Source: Homoserinibacter sp. GY 40078 (lineage in GTDB: Bacteria > Actinomycetota > Actinomycetes > Actinomycetales > Microbacteriaceae). Taken from it: DNA of 64,000 bases. Where the stretch lies: assembly GCF_008017545.1 (NCBI RefSeq), contig NZ_VRTZ01000001.1, positions 895,741-959,740 on the forward strand, in the 5' to 3' direction. The notes under the pieces were generated by a model. The model saw only the letters and a program-made list of their open reading frames with translations, was not told the origin of the DNA and did no database searches. The translations under genes and the position numbers were made by a program. Positions within the stretch are counted from its first letter, which is position 1. The number at the start of each line of letters is the position of its first letter. This document shows, piece by piece, positions 37,527-41,820 of this stretch.

Positions 37527-38855
37527 GTGTTCAGTGCCGTCGCGCGGATCTTCCGCACGCCGGACCTCCGCCGCAAGATCGCGTTCACGCTGGGCATCAT
37601 CGCCCTGTTCCGGCTCGGGTCCTTCGTACCCGCACCGTTCGTCGACTTCGGCAACGTCCAGCTCTGCCTCGCGGGCAACGCAGGCGCCTCGGGTCTCTAC
37701 GACCTGGTCAACCTCTTCTCAGGTGGGGCGCTCCTGCAGCTGTCGATCTTCGCGCTCGGCATCATGCCGTACATCACCGCGTCGATCATCGTGCAGCTGC
37801 TGCGCGTCGTCATCCCGCACTTCGACACCCTCTACAAGGAGGGCCAGTCGGGCCAGGCGAAGCTGACGCAGTACACGCGCTACCTCACGATCGCGCTCGG
37901 TGTGCTGCAGTCCACGACGCTCATCACCGTCGCCCGCTCCGGTGCGCTCTTCGGCACCACGAGCACCGCCGAGTGCGCACAGCTCATCGTCCCCGCAGGC
38001 GACACCTGGTACGGCATCCTGCTCATGGTCATCACCATGACCGCCGGAACCGGCGTCATCATGTGGATGGGTGAGCTCATCACCGAGCGCGGCATCGGCA
38101 ACGGCATGTCGCTGCTGATCTTCACTTCGATCGTCGCGACGTTCCCCAACTCGCTCATCTCGATCGCCCAGCAGCGCAACGTCGAGACGCTGCTTCTCGT
38201 CATCGGCATCGGCGTGCTCATCATGTTCGCCGTCATCTTCGTCGAGCAGTCGCAACGCAGAATCCCCGTCCAGTACGCCAAGCGCATGGTCGGACGCCGT
38301 ACCTACGGCGGCAACAACACCTACATCCCGATCAAGGTCAACATGGCCGGCGTGGTGCCCGTCATCTTCGCCTCGTCGCTGCTCTACCTTCCGGCGCTCG
38401 TCGCCCAGTTCAACCAGCCCGCCGCGGGCGAAACCGCCCAGCCGTGGGTCCAGTGGATCTCCACCTACCTCACGCGCGGCGACCACCCGCTCTACATGCT
38501 GGTGTACTTCCTCCTCATCGTCGGGTTCACCTACTTCTACGTCGCCATCACGTTCAACCCGGACGAGGTCGCCGACAACATGAAGAAGTACGGCGGATTC
38601 ATCCCCGGCATCCGCGCGGGCCGACCGACCGCCGAGTACCTCGACTACGTCCTCACCCGCGTCACCCTGCCCGGATCGATCTACCTCGGTCTCATCGCGC
38701 TCATCCCGCTCATCGCCCTCGCGATGGTCGACGCGAACCAGAACTTCCCGTTCGGTGGCACGTCGATCCTCATCATGGTCGGCGTGGGGCTCGAGACGGT
38801 GAAGCAGATCGACTCGCAGCTCCAGCAGCGCCACTACGAGGGGCTCCTGCGATGA
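37527..38855 (+). CDS. secY: Preprotein translocase subunit SecY
   Basis: The channel subunit of the Sec translocon, 442 residues with about ten membrane helices. It begins [20 protein letters not shown]; family motifs include [20 protein letters not shown] and the cytoplasmic loop [16 protein letters not shown] use GTG 37527, preceded by GGGAGG at 37517-37522; the longer open frame to 37452 adds residues not seen in SecY and crosses the rplO hairpin. Stop overlaps the adk ATG. Confidence 0.96.
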
Positions 38856-39451
38856 CGGTCCGCCTGCTCATCGTCGGCCCCCCCGGCGCCGGCAAGGGGA
38901 CGCAGGCGGAACGCATCGCCGCCCGCTTCGGCATCCCGACCATCTCCACCGGCGACATCTTCCGCGCGAACATCGCGGGAGAGACCGAACTCGGCAAGCG
39001 GGTGAAGGCGATCGTCGACGCCGGAGACTACGTTCCCGACTCGCTCACCAACGAACTCGTCTCCGACCGGCTCTCCGAAGCGGACGCCACCACCGGCTTC
39101 CTCCTCGACGGCTACCCGCGCACCCCCGACCAGGTGCGTTTCCTCGACGCACTCCTCAGCTCCCACGGGCACAAGCTCGATGCCGTGCTGCGTCTCGTGG
39201 CCGACCAAGACGAAATCGTGCGACGTCTGCGCAAGCGCGCCGTCGAGCAGGGCCGCGCCGACGACTCCGAAGAGGCCATCCGGCACCGCCAAGAGGTCTA
39301 CCAGCGCGAGACCGCGCCCGTCCTCGAGATGTTCCGCGAGCAGGGTCTCCTCATCGAGGTCGACGGGCTCGGGTCGGTCGACGAGGTGACGGGCCGCATC
39401 TGGGCCGCCTTCGCTGACGCCGGCATCGGTGCCGTCGAGGCGTCGGCGTAG
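38852..39451 (+). CDS. adk: Adenylate kinase
   Basis: A 199-residue enzyme interconverting ATP + AMP and 2 ADP. The P-loop is GPPGAGKGT at residues 9-17, with the AMP-binding [10 protein letters not shown] and [15 protein letters not shown]. The LID region is short ([17 protein letters not shown]) with no zinc cysteines, as in mycobacterial-type short-LID enzymes. ATG overlaps the secY stop by four bases. Last gene of the ribosomal superoperon; no methionine aminopeptidase gene follows. Confidence 0.97.
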
Positions 39452-39473
39452 ACCTCTAGCCTTCCCCGCGGCC

Positions 39474-39569
39474 GGGATGCGCATGCGGTAGCCGCGTCGC
39501 TTCCCCCGCGCGCTTCGCGCGCTCCCGCCAGGCCCGATGCCAGCGACACCGCTACCGCATACGCACCCC
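39474..39569. repeat. Palindromic element A downstream of adk
   Basis: Outer arms at 39474-39501 and 39542-39569 match in about 24 of 28 positions. Inside lies an apical hairpin GCGCGC-TTC-GCGCGC (39508-39522) and a 25-base segment (39521-39545) that is an exact inverted copy of 39696-39720 in element B. Together with element B it fills most of the 331-base gap 39452-39782, which has no gene. Confidence 0.75.
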
Positions 39570-39669
39570 GCCCGCGCCGCTCTCCGTCCTGCGGCAGCTG
39601 CAGCGGCCGACGCCACTGCGGGCGGGCGGGCCCGGGCGGTGAATGCAAGCTGCTGGTGCTGGGTGCGTA

Positions 39670-39772
39670 GCAGGGGTGACGGGATTTCTCCGGGACGCTG
39701 GCATCGGGCCTGGCGGGAGCAGGCCGGAGGCCTGCGGGGGTAGGCGTCGCGGAGAAATCCCGTCACCCCTGC
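39670..39772. repeat. Palindromic element B, inverted relative of element A
   Basis: Outer arms at 39670-39692 and 39750-39772 are a perfect 23-base inverted repeat. The apical hairpin GCAGGCC-GGA-GGCCTGC (39719-39735) differs in sequence from that of element A but keeps a perfect stem with a three-base loop. The flanking core (39696-39720 and GGGGGTAGGCG from 39736) is shared with element A in the opposite orientation. It ends about ten bases before the stop of the convergent PTS regulator. Confidence 0.8.
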
Positions 39773-39782
39773 GAAGCGGGGC

Positions 39783-41684
39783 TCACGTGTCGATCAGGCG
39801 GGTGAGCTCGGCGACGAGCGTCGGCACGTCGGTGGCCCGGGCGACGAGGGTGCGGACGTTCTCGCGGTCGGAGAACACCTCGACGAGCTGGTCGAACACC
39901 TCCTGGAAGCTGGCGCGACCGGATTCGCTGAACGCGATGAACGCGACCACCTCGACGCGCGAGCCGCCCCACTGCATCGACGTCGTGTTGAGCACGAGTG
40001 CGATGGCGGTGCGTTCGGCGGTCATCGCCATCGCGTGCGGCATCGCGAGCCCGTCGGTGAAGGCGGTGGACGACAGCCGCTCCCGTTCGATCGCTCCCGT
40101 GACGTAGGTGTCGTCGACGATCCCCGCTTCGATCATCTTCTCGCCGAGTATGCGGATCATGGCCTCCGCATCGGGGGCGTAGAGCTCGCGGAAGAAGAGG
40201 CGCTCGTCGAAGTAGCCGCCGAGGCGTTCCGCGAGGCGCGCGCGGCGGCGGCCGCGGCGTGTGCGCGAGATGGCGGCCTGGATGACCTTCACATCCGCCT
40301 CGCCGAGGAACGGGTGCACGACGATGATGCGGTCGCTCGGGGTGGGCGGGTCGATGACCGAGATGATGAGGTCGCCGGGGAGGGCGTCCCAGTCGACGTC
40401 GGAGCGCGTGTCGAGCTGCTCGATCCTGAGGTCGTGGCCGACGGCGGATTCGACGCGGTGCAGCAGCTCGAGGTGGAGCCGGTGGTAGGCGGGAGCGACG
40501 ATGGTCGCGGTGACGGCCTGCTCGGTCTGGCGGCGTTCCTCGAGACGCGCGCCGAGGTGCATCGCGAGGAAAGCGATCTCGTCCTCCGGCACGTCGATGC
40601 CGGTGCTGATCTGCAGCTCGCGGGCGATATACACGGCGAGCTCGTAGATCATCGGGTAGCCGGATTTGATGGAGCGCGTGAGCGGATTGCGCGAGAAGGA
40701 TCCTTCCTGCGCGCGCCGCACGAGCTGCCGGATGTGCATCGCGAGCCGCAGCAGGAAGTCGCCGTCGCCGTCGAGGTCGATGAGGTATTCGCGTGCCGCC
40801 TTCTCGACGATCGCCCGCACTTCGGCGAGCTGTTCGTCGTCGATGGGGGGCGGGCCGGCGTCGAGGGGGGCGACCGCGACGCGGGTCCCGAGCAGGAATC
40901 CGAGGTAGTCGAGGTCGCCTGGCGGAAGTTTCACGTCGAAGTGGTCGGCGACGAGTTCGTCGATGATCGCGGCGAACACGCCTTCCTCGGTCTCGCCTCC
41001 GCGTGCGGGGAGCGCGCTCTGCGTCTGGGAGCGGTCGACGGCGATGGCGAGGTGCAGCAGCACGGTGCTCAGCCCGTAGTCGTTGATCTCGTAGCCGTCG
41101 GCGACGAGTCGCGCGATGAGGGCGGTCTTGAAGGCGGTCAGGTCTCCGGCGGCGAACCAGCTCTCGATCCGGTCGACTTCGCGCATGCCGCGGGTCGCCT
41201 CGTCGCGGAAGAGCGCCCCGATGAGGCGTCGCCGGGCGGTTTCGGGACCCTCGAGCTGTACGCGTTCGCGCGTCCGTACGATCGTGAGTCCCGCGGCTCC
41301 GGCCCGCGATCGGGCGCGGGCGAGGTCGGTCTCGAGGGTGGAGTCGCTCACGTGCAGTCGTTCGGCGAGCTCGTAGAGGTCGACGCCTTCCGACTCCGGG
41401 GGAGCGTCGAGCAGTGCCCGCAGCACGGCGGTGGCGCGTTCGGTGGGGGTCTCGGCGCGTGCGCCGCGGTCGTCGCGCAGGCGCCTCGCCCATTCGCCAC
41501 GGTCGAGCCGATACCCGGACGGGCCGGATTCGATCACGGGCGCGTCCGATCCGCTGTTGAGCGCGGCGACGTAGCCCCGGATGCTGCGGTCGGTGACGCC
41601 CAGTCGCGCGCCGAGGTCGGCTGCCGTCAGCCAGCCGTCGTGCTGTGCGAGCACGTCGACGAGTTGCTCGTGTCGATCGACCAT
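39783..41684 (-). CDS. PRD-containing transcriptional regulator with EIIB/EIIA-like domains (MtlR/BglG type)
   Basis: A 633-residue PTS-controlled activator. Two N-terminal winged-HTH segments (DGWLTAADLGARLGVTDRSI; LYELAERLHVSDSTLETDLA) are followed by two PTS regulation domains with conserved His (VLLHLAIAVDRSQ; LAMHIRQLVRR, and FLAMHLGARLEE in the second), an EIIB-like domain without the active Cys, and an EIIA-type domain with active-site His (TDGLAMPHAMAM). Its activity would be set by phosphorylation from HPr and mannitol EII proteins. It is divergent from the PTS operon and probably activates it. ATG 41684 is chosen; GTG codons at 41699 and 41696 are in frame alternatives. Confidence 0.88.
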   Translation of the reverse strand: MVDRHEQLVDVLAQHDGWLTAADLGARLGVTDRSIRGYVAALNSGSDAPVIESGPSGYRLDRGEWARRLRDDRGARAETPTERATAVLRALLDAPPESEGVDLYELAERLHVSDSTLETDLARARSRAGAAGLTIVRTRERVQLEGPETARRRLIGALFRDEATRGMREVDRIESWFAAGDLTAFKTALIARLVADGYEINDYGLSTVLLHLAIAVDRSQTQSALPARGGETEEGVFAAIIDELVADHFDVKLPPGDLDYLGFLLGTRVAVAPLDAGPPPIDDEQLAEVRAIVEKAAREYLIDLDGDGDFLLRLAMHIRQLVRRAQEGSFSRNPLTRSIKSGYPMIYELAVYIARELQISTGIDVPEDEIAFLAMHLGARLEERRQTEQAVTATIVAPAYHRLHLELLHRVESAVGHDLRIEQLDTRSDVDWDALPGDLIISVIDPPTPSDRIIVVHPFLGEADVKVIQAAISRTRRGRRRARLAERLGGYFDERLFFRELYAPDAEAMIRILGEKMIEAGIVDDTYVTGAIERERLSSTAFTDGLAMPHAMAMTAERTAIALVLNTTSMQWGGSRVEVVAFIAFSESGRASFQEVFDQLVEVFSDRENVRTLVARATDVPTLVAELTRLIDT

Positions 41685-41820
41685 CCGCTCCGCCACCACC
41701 TAGGAACGCCCCCAGTCAAGCACCCGCAGCGCGGCAGAGAGCGGGATTCGGCAGGTTTTTCCGGGGGAGCGGAAGCGGCTGGGCTGGCGGCGGCCGCACC
41801 GTGCGACGCACACTGTGGAT

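Follow-up and report, generated by a model that had tools for sequence, protein, structure and literature searches.

A scattered Microbacteriaceae repeat family with compensated stems, a conserved G-rich loop and signs of a strand-specific fold

Introduction

Two long hairpins, here called elements A and B, lie between the convergent genes for adenylate kinase (adk) and a PTS regulator in the 64,000-nucleotide stretch of DNA analysed here (the window). They face in opposite directions and have different stems around the same core, which raises the question of whether they are a local inverted duplication, a pair of terminators, or two copies of something more widespread, and in which form any such element would act.

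Results

Two inverted hairpins with one core and different stems

The features of the junction are listed in Table 1. From its Pfam domains we take the PTS regulator to be of the BglG/MtlR type. The gene is convergent with adk, and its stop codon lies about 5 nt from the arm of B, while 15 nt separate the adk stop codon from the arm of A. Element A has its 3' side towards adk and its 5' side towards element B, and the 3' side of B points to the stop codon of the regulator.

The arms of A (39467-39501 with 39542-39576) are 86% complementary and those of B (39665-39698 with 39744-39777) 91%, and the folding energy of both elements on either strand is below that of 200 out of 200 shuffles (z of -5.2 to -10.2). 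The original prediction had described A and B as long hairpins in opposite orientation that share one exact 25-base core; the complementary arms were located, as was the inverted copy of the core (39521-39545 and 39696-39720). A GGGGGwAG segment is likewise common to the two (39507-39500 on the minus strand, 39736-39743 on the plus strand) and, as judged by eye, the apical stems indeed differ yet pair, with GCGCGC closing a GAA loop on the minus strand in A and GCAGGCC a GGA loop in B. The extents first given, 39474-39569 and 39670-39772, hold for the hairpins but not for their ends, as both elements reach slightly beyond them. Similarly, the outer stems are each self-complementary as described, but that of A is imperfect, being paired with mismatches.

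Table 1. Features of the junction between adk and the PTS-regulator gene, in window positions.
Feature	Position	Strand	Basis
adk	38852..39451	plus	Pfam PF00406, 4.4e-48; gene call
Element A, whole hairpin	39467..39576	minus	arm complementarity and folding energy
Element A, match to covariance model	39487-39556	minus	69.7 bits
A, 3' side of internal loop, GGGGGAAG	39500..39507	minus	sequence; columns 82-89 of 89-copy alignment
A, apical hairpin GCGCGC-GAA-GCGCGC	39508..39522	minus	sequence; helix 2 of model
A, 20-nt G-rich core loop TGGCATCGGGCCTGGCGGGA, 5' side of internal loop	39523..39542	minus	sequence; columns 15-34 of 89 copies
Element B, whole hairpin	39665..39777	plus	arm complementarity and folding energy
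Element B, match to covariance model	39685-39757	plus	83.1 bits
B, 20-nt G-rich core loop, identical to that of A	39699..39718	plus	sequence
B, apical hairpin GCAGGCC-GGA-GGCCTGC	39719..39735	plus	sequence
B, 3' side of internal loop, GGGGGTAG	39736..39743	plus	sequence
PTS regulator gene (HTH_11, PRD and EIIA domains)	39783..41699	minus	Pfam domains; gene call

Further copies in Microbacteriaceae

An initial DNA search of the genome that holds the window returned more copies. Covariance model R1, which was built after six copies from this genome had been aligned by sequence alone, finds 7 copies there and 75 over all nine genomes of the genus group, with 1 to 17 per genome. Copies were present in 11 of the 60 genomes of a wider sample, namely the nine genus genomes, G034 (5 copies) and G016 (1 copy). 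When 398 sampled Microbacteriaceae genomes were surveyed with model R2, at least 113 matches were obtained in 29 genomes from 10 of 85 genera, a lower bound because filters were strict and 12 candidates were scored per genome. The 18 new loci from this survey carry the same core within other stems of 16-34 pairs.

Of 16 named loci outside the genus group, six are true copies, five of them from Microbacterium (AK009, kunmingense, excoecariae, indicum and one MAG) and the sixth from one Actinomycetes MAG. The other ten, from Streptomyces (three), Micromonospora, Geodermatophilus, Methylobacterium, Gemmobacter, Cellulosimicrobium, Pseudoclavibacter and one Actinomycetota MAG, were taken as chance matches, having neither a model match at E < 0.1 nor, by eye, a matching long stem. 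In the fragmented assembly of G003, contigs C12 and C8 (L068 and L070) stop inside or just past elements, which suggests that short-read assemblies may lose copies.

A and B are members of a scattered Microbacteriaceae repeat family, not a local duplication. The original prediction had named a dispersed palindromic repeat as a candidate and a covariance-model search of Microbacteriaceae as the way to find it, and the copy numbers in the genus group and in 29 of the 398 genomes support it; it would have settled for a local duplication had neither further copies nor covariation come to light, and both were found.

Stem pairing is maintained by compensating changes

In an alignment of 89 copies fitted to the model, 94.3% of stem cells are paired compared with 71.0% in shuffles, 17 of the 20 stem pairs have changed on both sides (377 doubly changed cells versus 103 in shuffles) and slid structures drop to 25-49% pairing. 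The first six copies, aligned by sequence alone, gave 95.0% paired cells against 70.4%, with 13 of 20 pairs changed on both sides. At orthologous junctions, where the pair comparisons overlap one another, 346 stem pairs had changed on both sides and 48 on one side while still being paired; of the remainder, 110 were unpaired in one copy, 1 was unpaired in both and 713 were the same. A folded shape is kept by evolution in the family. The covariation that had been anticipated in both stems is borne out by the 17 compensated pairs and, together with the strand-biased wobbles described below, it supports the proposed selection on a folded structure.

Conserved and variable parts of the element

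The element is a palindrome of about 110-150 nt that runs, on the G-rich strand, in the order stem, core loop, apical hairpin, GGGGGCAU and stem; in the genus the stem measures about 29 bp. An asymmetric, G-rich internal loop is thus enclosed by a long stem of variable sequence. The 20-base G-rich loop hardly varies over the 89 copies, and nor does its GGGGG partner; the core loop reads UGGCAUCGGGnCkGGCGGGA, with 16 of its 20 columns at 0.89 or above, and the GGGGGCAU segment 3' of the apical hairpin has the form GGGGGwAG in the window. Four runs of at least two G in one loop strand, together with GGG or longer in the other, are present in 82 of the 89 copies. A three-layer G-quadruplex spanning both loop strands was rejected as a general feature, being possible in 24 of the 89 copies only.

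GNA and cGNNAg loops are stable in DNA. The apical loop of the family starts with G and ends with A in 66 of 80 copies and has the reverse-strand form in 1 of 80 (stem and loop counts cover 80 of the 81 copies, G003:C8 being cut by a contig end), and GNRA accounts for 2 of the 23 four-base G..A apical loops, which are not mutually independent. Likeness between arms in the genus is 0.73, compared with 0.615 for shuffled letters, and is 0.68 for the window's own genome; arm sequences vary widely, with a loose consensus, and are not wholly unrelated. The motif GCGNAGC lies within 30 nt of the stem base in 36 of 74 copies on the 5' side and 31 of 74 on the 3' side, against 175 of 6761 background windows (74 of the 81 copies were counted, leaving out G003:C8, G034 and G016).

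Two other repeats were seen near these loci. At L188 and L190 (gene end 1 in G001 and G003) a different long hairpin occupies the final 80 nt before the stop codon; by eye the two have a common centre, GAGACATTCCTGTCTCATGGATCGG, within a GCGAAGAAGGGGGCGGCG stem, and they are possibly a second family of the same design. A further repeat, GGTCTCGAGACGCGTCGCGC...GCGCTCCTCGACCACCTGAGT or variants of it, occurs in many of the 5' flanks of L051-L103 (for example L093, L096 and L101), sitting between the 5' gene and the element in 5' flanks from four genomes.

Wobble pairs point to one folding strand

Among the first 29 stem pairs of 80 copies, G·T occurs 62 times on the G-rich strand and A·C 8 times. 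A G·T pair is tolerable if the G-rich strand folds, whereas A·C on this strand is G·T on the other. Scored by copy, the wobbles lean one way in 38 of the 80 copies and the other way in 5. A set of 26 further copies, some of which are close relatives and therefore not fully independent, gave 21 G·T to 4 A·C (p about 0.001).

We rejected a replication-strand mutation bias as the cause because copies on either strand of five single-contig genomes lean the same way (18:2 and 10:2), and transcription from the 5' gene because the lean persists where both neighbouring genes read the other way (19:3); with no change of sign in these contexts, a mutation bias arising from replication or read-through explains the wobbles poorly. 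A conserved C·A mismatch in the apical helix of 45 of the 89 copies would be a wobble on the other strand, and this counts against a one-strand reading. The strand-specific wobbles otherwise suggest that the fold of one strand is selected. There are signs in these substitution patterns that only the fold of the G-rich strand is preserved, as RNA or as single-stranded DNA. The wobble bias identifies the folding strand, not the molecule.

The 3' side of the element abuts an opposing stop codon

None of the 81 copies lies inside a called gene, genes having been taken from our own small codon-score caller and not from annotation. Among the 79 copies with a gene on either side (two lie at contig ends), 54 are in convergent contexts, 14 are flanked by two genes on the opposite strand and 7 by two on the same strand, and 4 are divergent. 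Convergent junctions account for 47 of 72 junctions with an element but 6 of the 160 remaining ones in those loci, a control that is low because a junction beside a convergent one cannot itself be convergent; in the window alone, 5 of 65 junctions are convergent.

In 68 of the 79 copies, and in 15 of the 18 more distant loci, the gene next to the 3' side runs antisense to the G-rich strand; for 50 of the 68 it ends 21-50 nt away from where the 14-bp model stem stops. Among the 54 copies in convergent sites the median distance to the gene is 32.5 nt on the 3' side and 160.5 nt on the 5' side, and the 3' side is the closer one in 49. These counts show that the 3' side of the G-rich strand is set against the opposing stop codon. 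The 5' gene reads towards the element in 62 of the 81 copies. Most copies are single. All seven close pairs (14 of the 81 copies) are arranged minus then plus with their 3' ends outward, as in the window, and two more pairs, in L166 and L180, are likewise arranged minus then plus.

Those neighbours whose translations were inspected look by eye like ordinary genes, among them infB, rbfA, map, lexA and uvrD. In another genus (g67), L281 and L285 hold a copy between a BglG-type regulator and a methionine-aminopeptidase-like gene (names by eye), a junction that resembles that of adk and the regulator in the window. At L276, L278 and L282, copies lie between infB-like and rbfA-like genes (again by eye) in both orientations in related genomes.

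Copies differ in presence between related genomes

When 12 gene ends were compared across nine genomes, a copy was present in 33 cases and no copy was scored in 74, and one end was not found. At 15 of the 74 copy-less ends the two genes overlap or are no more than about 30 nt apart, and 3 of the 74 hold remnants. L196 has an outer stem without the core (by eye), and broken copies are found at L222 (E 8e-5) and L205 (E 0.45, judged by eye). At L189 the last 90 nt before the stop codon hold a core-less hairpin of about 25 bp, at a place where other genomes have the element (by eye).

The adk junction has two copies in G000 and G008, one in G001 and none in G004 and G005; the gene order around adk is different in G002 and G007, and adk in G003 and G006 was entered as unknown in the test of the presence pattern. 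Over 13 places, presence requires 28 changes on the tree compared with 31.9 by chance, a value reached by 12 of 500 shuffles, so that agreement of the pattern with the tree barely exceeds that of shuffled labels. Absences in G003 are unsure because its assembly is fragmented, with contigs ending at elements.

Stem likeness is 0.755 for the same place in different species, 0.753 within one genome and 0.730 for unrelated copies, while that of the apical hairpin is 0.823 within a genome, 0.727 at the same locus and 0.719 for unrelated copies (one further copy was omitted, and 800 sampled pairs represent the unrelated class). In G001 and G003, the two closest genomes, at least two copies occupy the same places with nearly the same stems, indicating that inheritance matters at short range. 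Related species often have no copy at the same place, which indicates that the element is not needed at any one site.

Insertion of the core into a pre-existing hairpin was also considered and rejected, as a scan for core-less outer stems gave seven matches in nine genomes, about the number in the backward control. One of the seven (L267 in G006) is by eye a core-less copy and looks like a deletion remnant. Filled and empty sites compared by eye revealed neither a target-site duplication nor a precise empty site.

Searches for a mobilising enzyme, a vehicle and a named family

The original prediction had raised a REP/REPIN-like family with a nearby Y1/RAYT transposase. This reading fails its own test, since the Y1 transposase domain PF01797 was found in none of the nine genus genomes and in 1 of 37 genomes overall, with 5 of 14 control genomes positive. 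PF01797 was the transposase family searched, and a mobilising enzyme was not found. No T-tract follows the hairpin on either strand in 79 copies (two of the 81, with short flanks, were left out), and an intrinsic (rho-independent) terminator was rejected on this ground. Neither blastn of the window's region against phage and plasmid collections nor the exact core pattern against viral contigs gave a match, so that no vehicle is seen. Copies are dispersed and vary in presence between related genomes, as in MITEs or ERIC-NEMIS-like repeats. Rfam at the gathering score gave no match in the window, and relaxed searching gave three at E 1.2-2.7, far below the threshold; no such family appeared among the best matches in the open-licence literature either, in line with the earlier view that no named family fits.

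Discussion

Our leading explanation, held at a little under even confidence, is that the family is a new non-autonomous palindromic repeat that has been spread and lost, each copy a strand-specific folded element with a conserved recognition core. A and B would be two copies of this one dispersed family, with their 3' sides outward. The repeat may be MITE-like and owe its spread and its re-copying within a genome to a trans-acting factor; this factor, presumably not a Y1/RAYT transposase, would recognise the folded G-rich strand through the core, and the stem would be a largely sequence-independent shaft. Transcripts entering the element would adopt the same fold, as an RNA hairpin just before the opposing gene. 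It counts against a mobile reading that the copies compensate in place, as inert mobile relics need not, and within-genome likeness can also stem from gene conversion.

Ranked second, and compatible with the mobile palindrome, is a cis-acting RNA barrier or 3'-end element, a possibility that persuades us less. Transcripts from the 5' side, which in convergent sites come from the opposing gene, would fold the G-rich hairpin just before the neighbour's stop codon, by which the transcript end would be stopped or stabilised and antisense transcription kept out of the neighbour, and a protein would bind the core loop. The strand-specific wobbles (62:8 and 21:4) are consistent with this, as are the position of the 3' side right against the opposing stop codon and the unconstrained spacing to the 5' gene (medians of 32.5 and 160.5 nt in convergent sites), the 62 of 81 copies with a 5' gene reading towards them and the outward-facing close pairs, each element beside its own gene. 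Stem-loops generally favour convergent regions and 3' ends, according to excerpts of PMC1590033. However, the T-tract is missing in 79 of 79 copies on either strand and many orthologous junctions have no copy, which together argue against a needed terminator. The wobble bias is also unchanged although 14 of the 79 copies have both neighbours reading the other way, and 2 of 23 four-base G..A loops being GNRA is unlike the tetraloop preference of RNA, these loops not being independent.

BIMEs bind gyrase or nucleoid proteins, and the family could by analogy be a DNA-level site at gene ends, a cruciform or a duplex/quadruplex junction bound between convergent units. The preference for convergent junctions, the long paired arms and the G-runs in both loop strands of 82 of the 89 copies would fit such a site, but a one-strand wobble bias of 62:8 has no evident reason in a duplex or cruciform, and with a three-layer quadruplex over both loop strands open to just 24 of 89 copies we consider it improbable. 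A local inverted duplication, or ordinary bidirectional terminators with a chance likeness, is refuted and can be given hardly any weight: other hairpins do occur by eye at some orthologous junctions without a copy, but at least 113 matches to one core in 29 genomes of 10 genera, covariation in 17 of 20 stem pairs and no T-tract in any of 79 copies stand against it.

Taking the mobile palindrome and the RNA element together, we see a real possibility, if short of a probability, that these repeats represent an undescribed class of strand-specific folded elements at gene 3' ends in Microbacteriaceae, in which a protein of the host or encoded by an element would read the invariant G-rich loop of the folded strand, either in RNA that fences a gene off against antisense transcription or in single-stranded DNA that is copied into new gene ends without a Y1 transposase. 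Palindromic repeats of bacteria are as a rule identified by the sequence that they share, and it is an old question whether their host gains anything from them. In this family the folding strand, the conserved face and the preferred sites are all specified, and a search for the customary mobilising enzyme gave none (PF01797 in 0 of 9 genus genomes), so that function and selfish spread can be set against each other in a direct test.

Families of the ERIC, YPAL and NEMIS (Correia) type are recognised by sequence shared over their length, unlike the present family, whose arms have a loose consensus and whose conserved part is the internal loop. In size and place they are its nearest relatives: excerpts of PMC2229807 describe intergenic elements of about 105-170 nt with a long stem-loop, of which some are transcribed into RNA that folds, and orientation matters for ERIC. 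REP and REPIN sequences resemble it, in the portions of PMC3116915 and PMC3733652 available, in being intergenic palindromic repeats with single-strand hairpins and, as proposed here, non-autonomous spread; they form inverted pairs, and in our family 14 of 81 copies lie in close pairs and most are single. REPINs are tied to RAYTs, as stated in part of PMC3116915, whereas the genus genomes of our family have no Y1 transposase and hold 1-17 copies each, and its stems are much longer and variable around a conserved loop. The words Actinobacteria, Clavibacter, Leifsonia and Streptomyces are absent from the available portion of PMC3733652.

In its accessible text, a survey of 40 genomes (PMC1590033) reports a preference of stem-loops for convergent regions and for the sequence following stop codons, which makes the place of our family, taken alone, ordinary. 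The stem-loop families in that text are positioned in the same way, no more than about 50 nt from stop codons, but its new families come from Yersiniae, Bordetellae and Enterococci, unlike ours; the high-GC Gram-positives that it names are Corynebacterium and Mycobacterium, and the words Actinobacteria and Leifsonia do not occur in it.

What characterises the present family is the combination of variable yet compensated arms, a fixed loop and a wobble bias that indicates the folding strand. Integron attC sites act through one folded strand, conserve structure above sequence and lie just after a stop codon, antisense to the gene. Those neighbours of our elements that were inspected look by eye like ordinary chromosomal genes, unlike the context of integron attC sites, but the one-strand fold, the precedence of structure over sequence and the antisense location just after a stop codon are features that the two have in common.
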